DNA of 33,273 nt from Bacteroidia bacterium. GTDB lineage: Bacteria > Bacteroidota > Bacteroidia > JAIBAJ01. A program made the position numbers and the translations under genes. Within the stretch, counting starts at the first letter, position 1, and each line of letters starts with the position of its first letter. The DNA lies in assembly GCA_019695265.1 (NCBI GenBank), contig JAIBAJ010000027.1, forward strand, positions 1 through 33,273, in the 5' to 3' direction. The notes under the pieces are model-generated. The model had not been told where the DNA came from. It did no database searches and was given only the letters and a program-made list of their open reading frames with translations. Below are positions 4,540 through 29,172 of this stretch, in pieces.

Positions 4540-4694
4540 GCGGGCCCCCTCCGCCCAAAAAGCACTTTGCAAAACCCTGATTAACCTGCATGGGCGTTCG
4601 GGTCACGCTATCGGCTGTAGTCCTCGTCCCCCTAGGCTAACGCCGTAGGGGTCCTGTGGGCTACTTGCCTCTATCGTTGCCCGATGCGCAATCC
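4540..4694 (+). repeat. Dispersed structured repeat, copy 2
   Basis: This 155 bp copy is in plus orientation. It has a GCGG/CCGC end hairpin around GGCCCCCT, the GCGT/ACGC stem, and the conserved TCGGCTGTAGTCCTCGTC. Its variable stem is CCCCTA paired with TAGGGG, with GGC/GCC inside. The GTGGGCTACTTGCCTCTATC block closes it. The last part is slightly degenerate (GATGCGCAATCC in place of GAGGTGCAAACC). A plus-strand frame over it (4451-4648) is not a gene. Confidence 0.9.
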
Positions 4695-11588: not shown

Positions 11589-11936
11589 TATTATTGGTTT
11601 TCTGAACTTTTGTACGTTAAGGTGTTTATAGGCATGTTTTGCTATGTCCATCTTATATTTCGTATAGAATTCACTAGTAATTTTTGGAAATAAGTTCTCT
11701 GTTATGGCCTGGTTTGGGATTTACCTTGCCAAGCAAGTGGAAAATATTGGTAAATGTGATTCAGCCTTGGGTTTGCACCTCGGGTAGGGATAGAGGCAAG
11801 TAGCCCACAGGAACCTGAAGCGGTAGCGGAGGGTGACGAGGACTACAGCCGATAGCCCGACCTGAGCCCTTGCTACACTTGAACAGAGGATATAATTTAT
11901 GGCGAAGGGACCCGCCTAATTTTTTAAAAAATAGAC
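11589..11936. other. Intergenic region holding repeat copy 3
   Basis: About 180 bp of unannotated sequence precedes repeat copy 3 (11769-11916), which ends 20 bp short of the EamA stop. No gene was supported. Confidence 0.6.
11769..11916 (-). repeat. Dispersed structured repeat, copy 3
   Basis: This 148 bp copy is in minus orientation, beginning about 20 bp after the stop of the EamA gene on the same strand. Relative to the other copies the second stem is GCTC/GGGC instead of GCGT/ACGC, so pairing is kept although the bases changed. The end hairpin is GGCG/CGCC. The central variable stem is the weakest of the four copies. It ends with CTACTTGCCTCTATCCCT and GAGGTGCAAACCC. Confidence 0.88.
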
Positions 11937-21636: not shown

Positions 21637-22047
21637 CTAATCTTCCCATTGGGAATAATCCGGTTTGCTTGGTTTTTGATCAATGGTTAATGCTTCCCCT
21701 TCGCTGTTTTGTTGTTCCAGAGTCCATTTATCGGTAACGGTTGTTTCTATCCACATTTTGCCGGATTTTCTAAATACCTGTACAGATAAGCCGTAAAGGT
21801 TTCCAAACTCCTGCTCCAATTCCGCAACTGTCATTTTGGGAGTTACTGTAATAAATCCGTCGCTATGAATGGTTCTAATTTGACCAATGGTTTTTTCAGG
21901 GTCAATAATTCCTTTCAATGGCGATAATTCTTTCACTCCATGCATTTTTTTAAAGAACTCCAACTTTAAATAGGGGTATTTTTGGTTGAAGGATTCTTGA
22001 ACCTCCGAGATTTTTCGGTCGTCCTTTATTGTCAAGATCATAAGCAT
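21637..22047 (-). CDS. Small conserved-looking protein linked to universal stress protein
   Basis: A 136-residue soluble protein of unknown function. It has no signal peptide or membrane helix. Two similar alpha/beta halves can be suspected: ISEVQESFNQKYPYLKLEFF (about 11-30) and TVAELEQEFGNLYGLSVQVF (about 76-95) share the pattern S/AE-Q-F-YP/YGL-V/EFF. The acidic tail PSKPDYSQWED ends it. The ATG at 22047 follows the stop of the upstream stress protein by one base. A longer frame starting at 22134 overlaps that gene and is unlikely. The shared operon, promoter and terminator suggest a role in the same low-oxygen or stress response. Confidence 0.7.
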   Translation of the reverse strand: MLMILTIKDDRKISEVQESFNQKYPYLKLEFFKKMHGVKELSPLKGIIDPEKTIGQIRTIHSDGFITVTPKMTVAELEQEFGNLYGLSVQVFRKSGKMWIETTVTDKWTLEQQNSEGEALTIDQKPSKPDYSQWED

Positions 22048-22048
22048 A

Positions 22049-22882
22049 TTATTTTGAGTGGTGAAATGATAAAAGTGGGATATGGGAATGAAAAGCCATT
22101 TGTTTGGTATGGCTTCGTTCAAATAGTCGATCAAAAAAACCTCTGGTCCGAACAGTCATTCCTATCATATCAGCATTAATTTCTTCTGTGTAATGGATAA
22201 TTCCTTCGGTCACATCCGAATTCTCTACTATTCTGGACCGTATTGATTGGTAACCGGAACTTTTCTTAATACTTTCGGTAAATTGATTCACCTCGTTGTA
22301 TTTGAATGGTTCCTTGTCTAAGTCGGGAGTAATGTGAAGTAATATAAGTTCGGCATGAAAAAATTGTGCTAGAAATGCCGCTCCTTCTACATTTTCATGG
22401 TCGTGTCTTTCAAAGTTAGTGGCAAAAACTATTTTTTGAATGCCTTTAAATTTGGCATGTGCAGGAATGGTTAGTACAGGAATATCTAAACTTTCAATCG
22501 TGTTTCCTGCATTGCTTCCTATTAGCAATTCCTGTAATCCGGATGCTCCCTTGGTACCCATTATGACTAACTCCGAATCCAGAGTTTTTGCCATTCGGCT
22601 TATTTCACTACTAATATCGGAAAAGCAGGTGGTTACCTTGGTTTGAATACTCATTCCCGGAAATTCTTCCTTTAACGTGTCTCTTAAGCGGTTAAGGTCA
22701 TTTTCAAGCTCCTTTACCAGTTCAAAATCTACCGGTACAACCACTTCTGCTGTGGTAACAGGTACAATGTAAGTGTGTAATAGTACAATTTCAGCCCCAA
22801 TAGTCCTGTTAAATTCCAATGCAAAGCGAATAGCATTTTCTGCTATTGGTGAAAAATCGGTTGGACAAAGTATAGTTTCCAT
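22049..22882 (-). CDS. Tandem-domain universal stress protein
   Basis: A 277-residue cytosolic protein with two USP domains (about 1-145 and 150-277). The first begins METILCPTDFSPIAENAIRF, with Asp9 near the nucleotide site, and carries the ATP-binding motif G-2x-G-9x-G-S: MGTKGASGLQELLIGSNAGN. The second (KIVFATNFERHDHENVEGAA) ends with MIGMTVRTRGFFDRLFERSH and lacks the canonical glycine motif, so it is probably not an ATP binder. USPs of this kind are induced by starvation and low oxygen. It has its own promoter with two Crp/Fnr-type palindromes (22978-23011) and is followed by a coupled small gene. It is paralogous to the gene at 23013. Confidence 0.93.
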   Translation of the reverse strand: METILCPTDFSPIAENAIRFALEFNRTIGAEIVLLHTYIVPVTTAEVVVPVDFELVKELENDLNRLRDTLKEEFPGMSIQTKVTTCFSDISSEISRMAKTLDSELVIMGTKGASGLQELLIGSNAGNTIESLDIPVLTIPAHAKFKGIQKIVFATNFERHDHENVEGAAFLAQFFHAELILLHITPDLDKEPFKYNEVNQFTESIKKSSGYQSIRSRIVENSDVTEGIIHYTEEINADMIGMTVRTRGFFDRLFERSHTKQMAFHSHIPLLSFHHSK

Positions 22883-22946: not shown

Positions 22947-23011
22947 CAAATTTCAATTGATAAATTCGATTTTGAAATGATTTCCGTCATCTGATTTACT
23001 GACTGGAATCA
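22947..23011 (-). promoter_or_regulatory. Crp/Fnr-type promoter of the first universal stress gene
   Basis: On the minus strand the -7 box is GAAATTTG (22954-22947; one change from TAnnTTTG). A TGA-N6-TCA palindrome (plus strand TGATTTCCGTCA, 22978-22989) is centred exactly 33 bp upstream of the box centre. A second one (TGACTGGAATCA, 23000-23011) is 22 bp further upstream, two helical turns away. The stress gene starts at 22882. Confidence 0.65.
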
Positions 23012-23012
23012 A

Positions 23013-23834
23013 TTAATGTAAAATAAGAGTTGGAATTTCAGTTTGGAACATCATTTTTTTGGTATGTGTTTCATGGGTAAGCCTATACCAAAAGGAATGG
23101 TGATGTGCTATTAAACAAATTAGTTCGGCTTTATGTTCTTTGGCATAGGATTGTATTCCTTCTTCGATCTCCGTTGCTTCCTTGAAATCCCTAACATGTT
23201 TCACTCCATCTAAAAATTGATCTACCTCAATGCTTCCTGTAACTTCTGATTCTGTTGGGGTTTCTTCCAAACTTTTTCGAACATTTAATACAAATATCTT
23301 GGATTCAAAAAATCGAGCCAAGGTTTTTAATGGTTTTAAGGTTTCCTGATTCGAAATCGAGGAAAGGTCAGTGCCCAGAACTATTTTTTCATAAGGATGA
23401 AACTCGGAATGGACCGGAATAATTAGTACCGGTTTCTCTGATTTTCTGCCAAGCTCGGTTGCTACACTTCCAATAATTCTATCTAGAAGTTCGGTATGCC
23501 CATTCATGCCAACTACAATTAAATCGGCATGTTCCTTTTTAGACTTGTATAAAATTTCATCAGTCGTACTCCCTAACCTATACCGACATTCAATTTCTAA
23601 TGCTCCTAATTCTCGGTGAATATCGTCTCTTAAAGAGTGCATTTTATCGCGGGCAACCTTTTCAACGGCTTCCCATGATAGAATCATTTGGGGAATCTCA
23701 GGGGTGTTCCCTTCAATTTGTCCTACATGTAAAATAATAAGCTTGCCTTTTATGGAATGGGCAAGATGAGCGGCATACTTAACTGCATTATTTCCTGATT
23801 CGGAAAAGTCAGTTGGGGCTAAAAGGGTTTTCAT
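23013..23834 (-). CDS. Tandem-domain universal stress protein
   Basis: A 273-residue paralogue of the neighbouring stress protein, also with two USP domains (about 1-143 and 148-273). The first (MKTLLAPTDFSESGNNAVKY) contains the nucleotide motif VVGMNGHTELLDRIIGSVAT. The second (YEKIVLGTDLSSISNQETLK) ends LIAHHHSFWYRLTHETHTKK without the glycine motif. It is transcribed from its own Crp/Fnr-type promoter (23849-23891) and lies just upstream of the other stress gene. No terminator separates them, so read-through is possible. Duplicate USP genes beside a redox or oxygen regulator are a common theme in anaerobically induced regulons. Confidence 0.93.
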   Translation of the reverse strand: MKTLLAPTDFSESGNNAVKYAAHLAHSIKGKLIILHVGQIEGNTPEIPQMILSWEAVEKVARDKMHSLRDDIHRELGALEIECRYRLGSTTDEILYKSKKEHADLIVVGMNGHTELLDRIIGSVATELGRKSEKPVLIIPVHSEFHPYEKIVLGTDLSSISNQETLKPLKTLARFFESKIFVLNVRKSLEETPTESEVTGSIEVDQFLDGVKHVRDFKEATEIEEGIQSYAKEHKAELICLIAHHHSFWYRLTHETHTKKMMFQTEIPTLILH

Positions 23835-23848
23835 AGTAAAACTTTTAG

Positions 23849-23891
23849 CAAAACTACAAGGTCCCTCAGCCTAATTTACTGATGGTGGTCA
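23849..23891 (-). promoter_or_regulatory. Crp/Fnr-type promoter of the second universal stress gene
   Basis: The -7 box TAGTTTTG (minus strand, 23856-23849) is a perfect TAnnTTTG and ends 14 bp before the ATG. The palindrome ACTGA-TGGTGG-TCAGT has its TGA/TCA core at 23880-23891, centred 33 bp upstream of the box centre, about -41.5 from the expected start point. A TGA half-site lies 22 bp further on (23902-23904). Confidence 0.7.
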
Positions 23892-23932
23892 GTAGGTAAC
23901 CTGATATCAATACCTAAACCCAAAAACACAAA

Positions 23933-24994
23933 TCAGTTTCGCATTTTTATGAGCTTTTCAAGATTTCTGATTTCAATGGTTCCACCACTGATAGAAATTA
24001 ATCCTTCTTCCTTGAAATCACTTAAGGTGCGAATGGTTGTTTCTGTTGCAGTTCCTGAAATATTAGCTAAATCATCCCTCGAAATATTCATTGAAAAATG
24101 AAGTGATTCATCCTTTTTATATCTATTATGCAAGGTTACCAATGCCTCAGCCACTTTTTTTCTTACAGAATTGTAGGCCAGATTAACCAATTGCTTTTCC
24201 TTTTCTGCTAAATTGTCCGATAATAGCCGAATAAATGTTTTCGAAACCTCGGCATTTTTATAAAGTAAGGAAAAGAAATCATCCTTGGGAATAAACCAAA
24301 TCTCACTTTCATCAATTGCAACAGCAGTATCCTGGTATTGCTGCTCTTCCATCAAGGCCAAATATCCAAAAAAGTCGCCCTCTTTATACAACCCTGTAAT
24401 GAATTCCTTGCCCAATTCGTGGGTGCGAAATGTTTTTACTTTTCCTTTGGCCAAATAGAAAATTCCTTTGGGATATCCATCTTCCTTATAAACGGTTTCT
24501 TTCTTGGTGTATACTTTGGATGCCTTTTCAATGTTGGAAATGTTCTTTAAATCAGCAATCGATTTGGCCGAATCTATAAATGCATTAATGCCTTGTGGGT
24601 TTTTAGGAAATTCGCTTTTCATCATGGATGATTTCCTAAGCCTGCTCTCAATAGCATTCAATAATTCAATGTCATCAAATGGCTTGGTAATGTAATCGTC
24701 TGCTCCCATTTCCATCCCTTTCCTTAATTCGGTCCGCTCGGCCTTGGCAGTTAAGAAGATAAATGGAATTGCCGCAGTTTTCTGATTTTTGGAAAGTAGA
24801 TGTAACACGCCATAACCATCAAGTACAGGCATCATAATATCACAAACAATCAAATCCGGAAGTTCACTTTGGGCTAATTCTACCCCCAATTTTCCATTGG
24901 CTGCAGTAAGCACCGTATAATTCGCTAATTCTAAAATCTCAGCCGTATTTTCTCTAACCTCGTTATTGTCTTCTATTAATAGGATCTTCTTCAT
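23933..24994 (-). CDS. Response regulator with Crp/Fnr-type output (REC-cNBD-HTH fusion)
   Basis: A 353-residue transcription factor. The receiver domain (1-120) is complete: acidic pair Glu8/Asp9, phospho-acceptor Asp52 (CDIMMP), Thr82 and Lys104. A cNMP-binding-like domain follows (about 145-265, FYLAKGKVKTFRTHELGKEF). Then comes a Crp-type winged HTH (about 270-353) with recognition helix GTATETTIRTL, keeping the Glu318 and Arg322 that contact TGA/TCA half-sites in Crp and Fnr. The cAMP pocket signature is absent (QDTAVA where Crp has RAATV). The only cysteine (Cys51) sits in the receiver, so neither cAMP nor an Fnr iron-sulfur cluster is expected; phosphorylation should be the signal. It overlaps the kinase gene by 4 bp (ATGA). 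Confidence 0.93.
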   Translation of the reverse strand: MKKILLIEDNNEVRENTAEILELANYTVLTAANGKLGVELAQSELPDLIVCDIMMPVLDGYGVLHLLSKNQKTAAIPFIFLTAKAERTELRKGMEMGADDYITKPFDDIELLNAIESRLRKSSMMKSEFPKNPQGINAFIDSAKSIADLKNISNIEKASKVYTKKETVYKEDGYPKGIFYLAKGKVKTFRTHELGKEFITGLYKEGDFFGYLALMEEQQYQDTAVAIDESEIWFIPKDDFFSLLYKNAEVSKTFIRLLSDNLAEKEKQLVNLAYNSVRKKVAEALVTLHNRYKKDESLHFSMNISRDDLANISGTATETTIRTLSDFKEEGLISISGGTIEIRNLEKLIKMRN

Positions 24995-26172
24995 TGTGGA
25001 AAAGTAATAGTAAAGGTGGTTCCCTGGTTTTCTACACTCTTAAAGGTAACACTTCCCTTCAAAAGTTCTGCATATTTTGAAATGATGTTTAACCCCAATC
25101 CTGTCCCTTGTATATGGTTAACATTATGTCCTCTGAAAAATCGTTGGAATAGATGCTTCTGATCCTGCTTGGGAATCCCGATTCCATAATCGGTAACTTT
25201 TAATATACATTTAGATGGACTTACCTCTGTATATACCTCAATAGCTTTGCCATTTGGCGAAAATTTGATGGCATTGGAAACTAAATTAAGCAATATGTTT
25301 TTCAGTAACTTCTTGTCCAAATAGGCTAAGCTTTCTCCCTGGTGCTTATAGTCTATAAATTGTCCTTCCTTGCAAATTCCTTGAAGCTCTTTCAAGGTTT
25401 CTGGTATGTAATTCTGTATGTCAAAATACTCTAAATGACACTCTATTCGGCCTTCTTCTAATTTGCTAACTGATAGAAAATCATTCAAAATGTCCGTTAA
25501 ATCATTGATGGATGTTTTTATCCGATTAATATGTTTTAACTGCTTTTCCTTTTCATCTAAATCTCCATATTGCTTAACTAAGGATAAACTTGATAAAATG
25601 GTGGCTAACGGGGTTCTAAACTCATGCGACGCCATCGAAACAAACCTGGATTTTAATTCATTCAGCTCTTTTTCCTTTTCTAAGGCATTGTATAACTCCG
25701 ATTTTGTTTTTTCCAGCTCCTGTATTGCCTCCTCCAAAATCATTGTCCTATTCCTAACTTGCTTCTCTAACTCCGCTGAATAATTCTTGAGTTTCTCTTC
25801 TGCATTCTTCCTTCTCGATATATCAATGATAAAGGCAATTACATACCTACCCTTCGCATTACTAAATGGACTCAAACTGATTTCAACAGGAAATTCTATC
25901 CCGTTTTTTTTCATCCCATATAAATCCATTCCAACTCCCATCGATCGGGCATGTGGGTTGTGAGTGAATTTTTCTCGCGATGCATGATGGCTGCCTACAA
26001 ATCGATGTGGTACCAGAATTTCAATCTTCTGTCCGATTAATTCTCCCGAATCGTATGCAAATAACCGCTCTGCGCTAGGGTTTGCTTCTGTTATTTTACC
26101 TTCGCTGTCAACTATAAGTATTCCTTCCGTTGCGAAAAGAAAAAGGGCTTCCACCCCCTCCTTGCTATCCAT
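24991..26172 (-). CDS. PAS-domain sensor histidine kinase (FixL-like arrangement)
   Basis: A soluble kinase without membrane helices, 393 residues from the ATG at 26172. A GTG at 26193 would add seven residues. A PAS domain (about 5-120) contains LVPHRFVGSHHASREKF, then GVGMDLYGMKKNGIEFPVEI. Next are a coiled-coil linker, a HisKA domain with the H-box SHEFRTPL (His183 from the ATG), and HATPase motifs NILLNLVSNAIKFSP, DYGIGIP, FQRFFRG and GTGLGLNI. A histidine in GSHHASR falls where FixL has its haem ligand, but the FixL oxygen-sensing arginine position is Met, and many non-haem PAS domains share this motif. The partner is the overlapping response regulator. The operon promoter carries a Crp/Fnr-type site, suggesting autoregulation. 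Confidence 0.9.
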   Translation of the reverse strand: MDSKEGVEALFLFATEGILIVDSEGKITEANPSAERLFAYDSGELIGQKIEILVPHRFVGSHHASREKFTHNPHARSMGVGMDLYGMKKNGIEFPVEISLSPFSNAKGRYVIAFIIDISRRKNAEEKLKNYSAELEKQVRNRTMILEEAIQELEKTKSELYNALEKEKELNELKSRFVSMASHEFRTPLATILSSLSLVKQYGDLDEKEKQLKHINRIKTSINDLTDILNDFLSVSKLEEGRIECHLEYFDIQNYIPETLKELQGICKEGQFIDYKHQGESLAYLDKKLLKNILLNLVSNAIKFSPNGKAIEVYTEVSPSKCILKVTDYGIGIPKQDQKHLFQRFFRGHNVNHIQGTGLGLNIISKYAELLKGSVTFKSVENQGTTFTITFPQ

Positions 26173-26219
26173 TTTGGGTTTGACTGAGTTCACCGCTAAG
26201 GTAGTAAATTGAAATTTGG

Positions 26220-26262
26220 CAAAACTACATGCTGAAAAATTTTCAAAACATGACGAATATCA
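26220..26262 (-). promoter_or_regulatory. Crp/Fnr-type promoter of the kinase-regulator operon
   Basis: The -7 box TAGTTTTG (minus strand, 26227-26220) is perfect. A TGA-N6-TCA palindrome (plus strand TGACGAATATCA, 26251-26262) is centred exactly 33 bp upstream of it. The box is flanked by the same 11 bp (GCAAAACTACA on the plus strand) as in the second stress-gene promoter. Confidence 0.68.
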
Positions 26263-26272
26263 TTCTTTTTTA

Positions 26273-26315
26273 TGATGGCCCTCAAATTCATAACCTTTTA
26301 ATAATCTGACTTTTG
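26273..26315 (+). promoter_or_regulatory. Crp/Fnr-type promoter of the copper ATPase gene
   Basis: The palindrome TGATGGCCCTCA (26273-26284) is centred exactly 33 bp upstream of the centre of GACTTTTG (26308-26315; one change from TAnnTTTG). It is divergent from, and 22 bp centre to centre from, the site of the kinase operon. The implied leader to the ATG at 26460 is about 140 bases. Confidence 0.62.
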
Positions 26316-26459: not shown

Positions 26460-28883
26460 ATGGAATCCTATACCGTTAGTCCTCCCGAATTAAAAGTTCA
26501 TACCTGCTACCATTGTGGAGAATCCTGCAAGGACGAAATCATTGAATTCGACCAAAAAGAGTTTTGTTGCGAAGGTTGCCAACTGGTTTATGACCTTCTT
26601 CGTGAAAATGAGCTGTGTACCTACTACAATCTGAATCAAGCTCCAGGCTCTACCCAAAAACAAAAAAATCTCGCACTTAAGTTCGAATACCTAGACGATC
26701 AGCAGGTCTATGACCGACTCATTCGTTTTAAAAATGAAAGCCAAACTCATGTGGTGTTTTTTATTCCTAAAATGCACTGCAGTTCTTGCATCTGGCTGTT
26801 GGAAAATCTTCATAGACTTAACCCCGGAGTGATTAGCTCCAAAGTGAATTTTGTAAGAAAGGAAGTAACCATCGTCTTTAATAGTTCTCAAATTAAGATG
26901 TCGGAATTGGTGGCTCTTATGGCTAATATTGGCTATGAACCACTGATAAACCTAAATGACCTGGAAAAAAATGCTGAAAAGAATGAAACCAGAACCCGGG
27001 TCATCAAAATTGGATTAGCCGGCTTCTGTTTCGGAAATATTATGATGCTTAGCTTCCCTGAATATTTTTCTTCAGGAAATTTTTTGGAACAAGAAAATCT
27101 GAAGTATTTCTTCGGCTATCTGAATTTATTCCTCTCTCTTCCCGTTTTTTTCTATTCCTCCTCTGAGTTTTTTGTCTCTGCCTGGAAGGGCCTGAAATAC
27201 AAATACATCAACATCGATGCTCCCGTAGCACTTGCTATACTCGTTACCTTTGTTCGAAGCGTTTTTGAAATCATTAGCCAAACCGGTGCAGGTTATCTGG
27301 ATTCTATGTCAGGAATCGTGTTTTTTATGCTTATTGGCCGCTATTTTCAAAATAAAACCTATGAAACTATGTCGTTCGAAAGGGATTATAAATCCTATTT
27401 CCCAATCGGTGTCTCTGTACTGAATAAAGATGGAAGCGAATCAAATGTTCCGGTTTCTTCCTTGAAAAAAGGGGATAAAATTCTTATTCGGAACAATGAA
27501 TTAATTCCTGCCGACGCCATTTTACTCAGCCCATCCACTCACATCGATTATAGCTTTATTACCGGTGAATCGGATCCCATCAAAAAAGTGGTTGGTGAAT
27601 TGGTTTATGCAGGAGGTAAACAACTCGAAGGTGCCGTGCGCCTCGAAATCCTAAATCCAACTTCCCAAAGCTATTTAACACAATTGTGGAACCAGGATTC
27701 TAAATCAGAAAATGAACAAATTCAAAAAACCTACATCGATCGTATCAATAAATATTTCACCTTGTCGGTGTTGGCAGTTTCTGTTTTGTCCGCCATCTTC
27801 TGGGCATTCTTTGACCCGGCTAAATCGCTCAATGCCTTTACCGCCGTCCTTATCGTTGCCTGTCCTTGTGGCCTCCTTCTTACCAATACCTTTGCCAGCG
27901 GAAATGTATTACGCCTGTTCGGACGCAGAAAGTTCTATCTAAAAAATGCCCCTGTCATTGAAAAATTGTCCCGAATAGATACCATTATTTTTGATAAAAC
28001 CGGCACCATCACTCACGGCTCCAGTATTTCTTTCGAAGGCCCAACCTTAGGCTCCAATGAAATTAATTTGGCTGTTTCCCTGGCCGCTCAATCCTCTCAC
28101 CCGCTAAGCCGCAAAATCAGCAGCTTTTTCGGAAAAAGTACAAGGAATTTGCTGCCGGTTAGCGACTTTTCTGAACTGCCCGGAAAAGGCTTAAAAGCTC
28201 AGGTGGGAGATCACTATGTGGTTATGGGCTCTGAATACTTTGTCACCGGAAATCATAATTTTTCCAACCTGAATTCTACCAAAGTTTTTCTAATGATTGA
28301 TGGGGTGGTAAAAGGTTTTTTCAAATTTAAAAATGCCTACCGCGATGGACTAAAAGATTTGGTTGACGGGCTTAGTAACCAGTTTGATTTAAAGGTTTTA
28401 TCGGGCGATAACGATTCGGAGAAATCAATTGTGGAATCCATTTTTGGTACAAAAGCCGAAGTTCATTTTAACCAAAAACCCGAAGACAAAATGCGCTTTG
28501 TTCAAGCTCTCCGTTCCAATGGCAAAAAAGTGTTGATGGTTGGAGATGGTTTAAATGATGCCGGAGCACTCAAACACAGCGATGTAGGAATTGCAGTTTC
28601 CGATGATACCAATAATTTTTCTCCGGCTTGCGATGCCATTTTGGATGGGTCTAATTTGAATAAGTTGGGTTACTTTCTTCAAATGGCAAAAACGACTAAA
28701 ACGGTAACTATTTCTACCTTTTTCTTTTCTTCTATCTATAATTTTATTGGTCTTTCTTTCGCCGTTCAAGGCACACTTTCTCCGGTAGTTGCAGCTATTT
28801 TAATGCCTCTAAGTTCTATTTCTATCGTTGTACTTTCTACGGGTTTAAGTACTTTGTTTGCTAACATCCTCGATAAAAAGTAG
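26460..28883 (+). CDS. ccoI: CcoI/FixI-type copper P1B-ATPase
   Basis: An 807-residue heavy-metal P-type ATPase of the type that supplies copper to cbb3 cytochrome oxidase. The N-terminus has the Cys-rich metal domain of this subgroup (Cys16, 19, 23 and CCEGC at 36-40). An HMA domain with MHCSSC (Cys107, Cys110) follows. About eight membrane helices carry the CPC ion-path motif (Cys468-Pro-Cys470). The catalytic DKTGT has Asp512, and the hinge is MVGDGLNDAGALKHSD. In Bacteroidota this gene usually heads a cco cluster, but here no ccoS or ccoN follows: the next element is repeat copy 4. The Crp/Fnr-type site upstream agrees with oxygen-limited expression. Third codon positions look more C-rich than in neighbours, by eye only. 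Confidence 0.9.
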   Translation: MESYTVSPPELKVHTCYHCGESCKDEIIEFDQKEFCCEGCQLVYDLLRENELCTYYNLNQAPGSTQKQKNLALKFEYLDDQQVYDRLIRFKNESQTHVVFFIPKMHCSSCIWLLENLHRLNPGVISSKVNFVRKEVTIVFNSSQIKMSELVALMANIGYEPLINLNDLEKNAEKNETRTRVIKIGLAGFCFGNIMMLSFPEYFSSGNFLEQENLKYFFGYLNLFLSLPVFFYSSSEFFVSAWKGLKYKYINIDAPVALAILVTFVRSVFEIISQTGAGYLDSMSGIVFFMLIGRYFQNKTYETMSFERDYKSYFPIGVSVLNKDGSESNVPVSSLKKGDKILIRNNELIPADAILLSPSTHIDYSFITGESDPIKKVVGELVYAGGKQLEGAVRLEILNPTSQSYLTQLWNQDSKSENEQIQKTYIDRINKYFTLSVLAVSVLSAIFWAFFDPAKSLNAFTAVLIVACPCGLLLTNTFASGNVLRLFGRRKFYLKNAPVIEKLSRIDTIIFDKTGTITHGSSISFEGPTLGSNEINLAVSLAAQSSHPLSRKISSFFGKSTRNLLPVSDFSELPGKGLKAQVGDHYVVMGSEYFVTGNHNFSNLNSTKVFLMIDGVVKGFFKFKNAYRDGLKDLVDGLSNQFDLKVLSGDNDSEKSIVESIFGTKAEVHFNQKPEDKMRFVQALRSNGKKVLMVGDGLNDAGALKHSDVGIAVSDDTNNFSPACDAILDGSNLNKLGYFLQMAKTTKTVTISTFFFSSIYNFIGLSFAVQGTLSPVVAAILMPLSSISIVVLSTGLSTLFANILDKK

Positions 28884-28939
28884 TTAGAGCAGCTATAACC
28901 GGATTGGCATGACCATGAAGGTTGTTTTAATTGGTTTTT

Positions 28940-29095
28940 GGCGGGCCCCCTCCGCCTACTATTTTTTCTGCAATCTTCCAAACATAGAACCTAGGCGTTC
29001 GGGTCACGCTTTCGGCTGTAGTCCTCGTCGCACTTGGCTAGCGCCGCGTGCTCCTGTGGGCTACTTGCCTCTATCGTTGCCCGAGGTGCAAACCC
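28940..29095 (+). repeat. Dispersed structured repeat, copy 4
   Basis: This 156 bp copy is in plus orientation, 57 bp after the ccoI stop and between convergent genes. It has a perfect GGCGG/CCGCC end hairpin and the GCGT/ACGC stem. The variable stem is GCAC paired with GTGC around GGC/GCC, different in sequence from copy 2 but still paired. The GTGGGCTACTTGCCTCTATC block and GAGGTGCAAACCC close it. Confidence 0.92.
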
Positions 29096-29172
29096 AATCG
29101 GTAAGGCTTCGAACCAAGTTTTACTTATTCCGGGATTTGGGTTAAACCTGTACTTGTAAAATATTCTAATTC

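Follow-up and report, generated by a model that had tools for sequence, protein, structure and literature searches.

The window (the whole stretch of 33,273 nt that was analysed) encodes on its minus strand a REC-cNMP-HTH_Crp response regulator of 353 amino acids (23933–24994, domains from Pfam; hereafter REC-Crp), a putative activator, and a PAS-HisKA-HATPase histidine kinase (24991–26193) whose gene overlaps that of the regulator by 4 bp. Two universal stress protein genes, usp1 (22049–22882) and usp2 (23013–23834), lie on the same strand, and the plus strand carries the gene for a CcoI/FixI-like heavy-metal P-type ATPase with an N-terminal metal-binding domain (26460–28883; hereafter ccoI). 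Downstream of usp1, a conserved protein with no Pfam or NCBIfam match is listed at 21637–22134 (minus strand); the listed TTG start overlaps usp1, and translation probably begins well downstream of it.

A preliminary description of this DNA held that the promoters of usp1, usp2, the kinase operon and ccoI share a TGA-N6-TCA site located exactly 33 bp from a TAnnTTTG-like -7 box, two of the boxes being perfect and two near-perfect. Both points are confirmed: the centre-to-centre distance is 33.0 bp in 4/4 promoters, and the two imperfect boxes match 5/6 specified bases. In the usp1 promoter, the proximal site TGATTTCCGTCA (centre 22983.5; 22978–22989, TGACGGAAATCA on the minus strand) lies 33.0 bp from the box GAAATTTG (22947–22954, centre 22950.5, minus strand, 5/6). 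The fifth site claimed for this promoter is likewise present, with TGACTGGAATCA centred at 23005.5 (23000–23011, TGATTCCAGTCA on the minus strand), 22.0 bp upstream of the first. In the usp2 promoter, the proximal site TGATGGTGGTCA (centre 23885.5; 23880–23891, TGACCACCATCA on the minus strand) is paired with the perfect box TAGTTTTG (23849–23856, centre 23852.5, minus strand). A half-degenerate distal site, missed in the preliminary description, reads GTATTGATATCA on the minus strand (23902–23913, centre 23907.5); matched to the composite pattern, this promoter has 2 mismatches.

The kinase operon and ccoI have one pair of sites in common, used symmetrically and separated by the same 22 bp, as had been noted for the divergent sites at 26.26 kb. 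The first site, TGACGAATATCA (26251–26262, centre 26256.5), is proximal for the kinase operon, with its perfect box TAGTTTTG (26220–26227, centre 26223.5, minus strand), and distal for ccoI; the second, TGATGGCCCTCA (26273–26284, centre 26278.5), is proximal for ccoI, with its 5/6 box GACTTTTG (26308–26315, centre 26311.5, plus strand), and distal for the kinase operon. All four window promoters thus have a proximal site at 33 bp and a distal site at 55 bp from the box, labelled -41.5 and -63.5 respectively on the numbering given below.

It could be argued that such short, AT-rich motifs, picked after reading the sequence, fell into register by chance. The window contains 12 copies of TGA-N6-TCA and hundreds of imperfect boxes; 17 palindrome-box pairs are found at distances of 20–60 bp, and one of the five at 33 bp lies inside an open reading frame (15748.5), probably itself a coincidence. 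By itself, the window renders the case for a fixed spacing only suggestive, and it is the comparative test that decides. We assembled 100 loci (20 from relatives and 80 from GTDB species, Chitinophaga rupis and Lacibacter cauensis among them, 1.74 Mb in total), each centred on an orthologue of the window REC-Crp gene; since the loci were picked by protein and not by motif, their choice cannot account for the distance peaks. Distances from TGA-N6-TCA to a perfect TAnnTTTG peak at 33 bp (95 cases) and 55 bp (90 cases), the next-highest counts being 10 (at 56 bp) and then 6, while the control palindromes ACT-N6-AGT and AGT-N6-ACT and the control spacers N5 and N7 give no distance spike in these loci. 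Between palindromes, 151 pairs are spaced by 22 bp, compared to 8 at 23 bp and at most 4 elsewhere. The peak at 55 bp hence identifies the operator unit as two palindromes exactly 22 bp apart, at -41.5 and -63.5.

A box matching at least 5/6 bases is found at 32–34 bp on at least one side of 137/151 distinct pairs. The distance is exactly 33 bp for 148/171 boxes, with 7 at 32 bp and 5 at 34 bp, so 33 bp is strongly preferred but not absolute. The symmetric divergent layout, with boxes on both sides of the pair, recurs in relatives (23 of 151 pairs). The assertion that four identical spacings do not easily arise by chance is therefore borne out by sharp peaks in the loci of relatives. Chance or post-hoc choice is ruled out by the control palindromes, the other spacers, reversed patterns, random windows and shuffles, and with distances and spacing recurring in independent genomes we consider its probability negligible. 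A profile of 149 promoters also reveals that the two palindromes are not alike. Only the distal one has an A-rich spacer (TGAYAAAARTCA-like), and the proximal one favours TCAT at its 3' end.

The preliminary description had staked its case on conservation of the spacing in orthologous promoters, and such conservation is observed. When genes were identified by protein similarity in these 100 loci, the tandem operator with box was found upstream of ccoNO in 30/32 cases, all at 33 bp, of ccoI in 21/31, of the kinase gene in 25/81 and of usp in 18/63. The corresponding counts are 119/4000 for random windows of the same loci (real sites included) and 0/1440 for shuffled upstream regions. Regulon membership varies: among orthologues, only about 30% of kinase and usp promoters retain the operator. 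Further genes found behind the operator in relatives encode DoxX-like proteins, ScdA/RIC-type di-iron proteins, HemN, Hsp20, CBS-domain proteins and cytochromes c (some named by eye). One gene with both COX1 and FixO domains was confirmed as a CcoN-CcoO fusion. In many relatives, homologues of the small conserved protein at 21637–22134 are the first gene behind the tandem operator.

The sigma-A box of Flavobacterium psychrophilum has been mapped at -12 to -5, and the cbb3 oxidase of this organism is strongly induced under oxygen limitation (PMC9723704). A palindrome centred 33.0 bp upstream of the middle of such a box would sit at -41.5, and the second at -63.5. The class II position of about -41.5 proposed earlier fits this mapped box, and the 33.0 bp distance would accordingly be that of a predicted class II activator-dependent promoter. 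What does not stand is the notion of an operator consisting of a single -41.5 site: the proximal site is there, but the operator is a tandem pair. No conserved -33 element is seen in the aligned promoters, as expected for activator-dependent promoters. Some -41.5 sites do repress, and activation does not follow from position alone; the pairs might thus be repressor or dual-function sites at which the same protein represses when unphosphorylated. However, the strict 33 bp helical phasing to the -7 box suits class II activation, as do the lack of a -33 element and the autoregulated, activator-type gene order, and we regard repression as very improbable.

The whole source genome was searched for a four-part pattern (two palindromes with 10 bp between them, 23 bp, box) allowing up to 3 mismatches. 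The window promoters occupy rows 1–3 and row 6 of the ranking. The source-genome CcoNO is encoded on contig C115, is 79% identical to that of a relative, and is preceded by a short CcoS-like open reading frame. The ccoSNO promoter reads TGACGAAGGTCA, 22.0 bp, TGACTGCACTCA, 32.0 bp, TAGTTTTG; at 32 bp, it illustrates that exceptions to the strong preference for 33 bp occur. Exact tandem pairs known in the source genome are the two of the window (usp1 and kinase/ccoI) and that of ccoSNO, and the regulon looks small, comprising the kinase-regulator operon, ccoI, usp1, usp2 and ccoSNO. The tandem pattern is needed for such a search, given that a scan of the genome with a single site yields a mild enrichment at 33 bp (8/67 matches over 31 spacings).

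A candidate operator on contig C15 lies between two co-directional genes that face the opposite way, and was rejected as a probable chance match. Contig C46 carries a Crp-like regulator gene divergent from a cytochrome c gene (L164 859–1485 and 1722–2207); a candidate one-mismatch tandem operator with a degenerate proximal site is located ~16 bp upstream of the start of the Crp-like gene. Separately, a dispersed repeat of ~160 bp is found in either orientation in the window (28935–29115, 112–199, 4593–4694 and 11778–11865) and in at least 40 copies in the source genome. Sequence resembling it can be seen by eye upstream of the ccoSNO promoter (L204, about 100–240).

REC-Crp consists of a receiver domain (PF00072, 1e-26) fused to a Crp/Fnr module (PF00027 and PF13545), in which a cNMP-binding-fold domain is followed by HTH_Crp. 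The recognition-helix residues Glu318 and Arg322 are invariant in 101/101 REC-Crp sequences. The receiver residues E8, D9, D52, T82 and K104 are conserved in orthologues, which together with the overlapping kinase gene suggests a functional response regulator, D52 being the receiver acidic residue. The window REC-Crp possesses a single Cys, adjoining D52, and most orthologues have 1–2 Cys; the cluster-binding cysteines of the Fe-S sensor FNR are absent. With no Cys other than that beside the acceptor Asp, an FNR-type cluster in REC-Crp itself is very unlikely. A canonical cAMP phosphate-binding motif is not evident by eye, and the NCBIfam CRP model scores far below its cut-off. REC-Crp is set apart from FixK by its own REC domain and by a score of 67.9 bits against a cut-off of 300 for the NCBIfam FixK model. 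Among PAS structures in the PDB, the kinase PAS domain is best matched by the haem PAS of FixL (2.3e-12), and one of its His residues aligns with the haem His region. A P-x5-7-H motif is present in 81/81 kinase orthologues, but many PAS domains with no known haem binding share it, and Met occupies the position of the FixL distal Arg in the window kinase.

The preliminary description had proposed scanning the genome and its relatives for the same spacing near cco or usp genes. In 296 Bacteroidia genomes (composite pattern with at most 1 mismatch), the operator recurs with 783 matches, compared to 2 for the reversed control; because the genomes share ancestry, counts are not independent, and differences in lifestyle are uncorrected. 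At least one composite is present in 90% of genomes where REC-Crp is strong, and this share falls to 70% where it is weaker, 49% where there are only partial relatives and 5% where there are none (strength groups transcribed by hand). Occurrence of the composite tracks REC-Crp and a related regulator. An operator strictly specific to REC-Crp is rejected by the finding that genomes without REC-Crp carry it as well, and it was the 49% figure for partial relatives that led to the second regulator.

In genomes devoid of REC-Crp, operators adjoin stand-alone Crp/Fnr genes and precede ccoNO, ccoI, usp and HemN. The stand-alone protein has Cys at positions 8, 11, 36, 57 and 110 in 27–30 of 30 sequences, and its recognition helix, GTATETxIR, is the same as that of REC-Crp. 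In half of a sample of 30 such genes, the tandem operator with box lies within 1.5 kb. When the Crp parts are placed in a tree, the REC-Crp and stand-alone proteins sampled form two sister clades with supports of 0.86 and 0.92 (a quick FastTree, with the root chosen by us relative to two distant source-genome Crp proteins). The mean number of operators per genome is 7.3 with both regulators, 2.5 with REC-Crp alone, 1.5 with the Cys-bearing protein alone and 0.26 with neither. One relative (G197) has 50 composite matches as well as several REC-Crp relatives and four FNR-like genes; its regulon appears to have expanded greatly.

A search of the source genome for the Cys-bearing sister found none, the one match at 1e-20 being REC-Crp itself; the other Crp-like proteins of this genome (that of C46, that of C104 and others) are distant. 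REC-Crp had been named as the obvious regulator. It is indeed the best candidate, being adjacent, having the operator at its own operon, retaining Glu318 and Arg322 and having no other close Crp/Fnr protein beside it in the genome, but the operator is common to genomes without REC-Crp, where it lies beside the gene of the Cys-bearing sister. With the stand-alone sister missing from the source genome, REC-Crp is likely the regulator using the pairs there, as judged from sequence. The same observations invite a different assignment, in which the main protein bound to the operators here is a stand-alone Crp/Fnr other than REC-Crp, for instance the C46 regulator, and REC-Crp is a mere neighbour or target: Crp/Fnr relatives adjoin these operators where REC-Crp is absent, and the C46 protein has an E-x3-R helix in addition to the one-mismatch operator upstream of its gene. 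We consider this unlikely, because the users of the operator elsewhere are Cys-bearing, GTATETxIR proteins of the sister clade, of which the source genome has none, and the composite is still present in 78–81% of genomes with REC-Crp but without the sister.

Our preferred reading, to which we assign a probability of roughly 0.8, is that a tandem Crp/Fnr-type operator, activated by the adjacent REC-Crp via the PAS kinase of its operon, drives the kinase operon, ccoI, usp1/usp2 and ccoSNO. One dimer would bind at -41.5 in the class II position, beside the -7 box of the Bacteroidota housekeeping sigma factor, and a second dimer would bind at -63.5, which is 22 bp (~two helical turns) farther upstream and on the same face of the DNA. 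The PAS histidine kinase would switch on REC-Crp, probably at low oxygen, a signal that is reasonable in view of the targets; phosphorylation would be the switch. REC-Crp would then drive its own operon, the CcoI copper ATPase, the two universal stress proteins and, elsewhere in the genome, ccoSNO. The one pair that lies between the kinase operon and ccoI would serve both directions, each dimer being class II with respect to one promoter and upstream with respect to its divergent partner. Operator anatomy, fixed spacing, conservation, target genes and the tracking with regulators can be read from the genomes themselves, whereas binding of the pair by REC-Crp, cooperativity between the two dimers and activation are predicted from them.

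The composite motif (two palindromes 22 bp apart, 33 bp, TAnnTTTG) has enough specificity for target prediction in individual genomes, and offers an explanation, open to testing, of how a major phylum regulates its genes at low oxygen; no published account of cbb3 oxidase control in Bacteroidota was found in the open-access literature (subscription journals and preprints being outside the scope of the search). The 22-bp pair and its symmetric divergent form furthermore offer a clean system for cooperative Crp/Fnr activation with an atypical Bacteroidota sigma factor. Class I and class III promoters of E. coli CRP can have one dimer near -41.5 and another farther upstream on the same face. E. 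coli is not known to use a fixed 22-bp pair as the regular unit throughout a regulon, nor to share such a pair symmetrically between two divergent promoters.

With FNR, Anr and FnrN, the system has in common TGA-N6-TCA recognition, the E-x3-R helix and the class II position. The sister protein of REC-less Bacteroidia has conserved N-terminal Cys and the same target genes, whereas REC-Crp is without such Cys. The Cys spacing of the sister (C-x2-C, then C36, C57 and C110) is unlike that of E. coli FNR, and cluster binding by the sister is only putative. The closest known system is FixLJ-FixK of the Alphaproteobacteria (Caulobacterales and Rhizobiales), with which a kinase whose PAS resembles the haem PAS of FixL, an Fe-S-free Crp/Fnr protein and cco and hemN targets are common. 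It differs in that a separate FixJ activates fixK transcription, while here the receiver is fused to the Crp/Fnr module in a one-step cascade, and in that the operator here is a 22-bp tandem pair. From its domain make-up, REC-Crp may work like FixJ plus FixK in one protein, while being a member of neither family. In Alphaproteobacteria, a kinase-driven regulator has been proposed to replace the Fe-S protein FnrN on the same sites (PMC4999443). We lean slightly towards a comparable view for Bacteroidia, with one rigid tandem operator as the fixed DNA code of the microaerobic cbb3 regulon, read interchangeably by a directly sensing, Cys-bearing FNR-like protein and by a REC-fused protein fed by a FixL-like kinase. 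This would be an apparent natural case of a swap in sensory input on a conserved operator, the sensor being exchanged and the operator kept.
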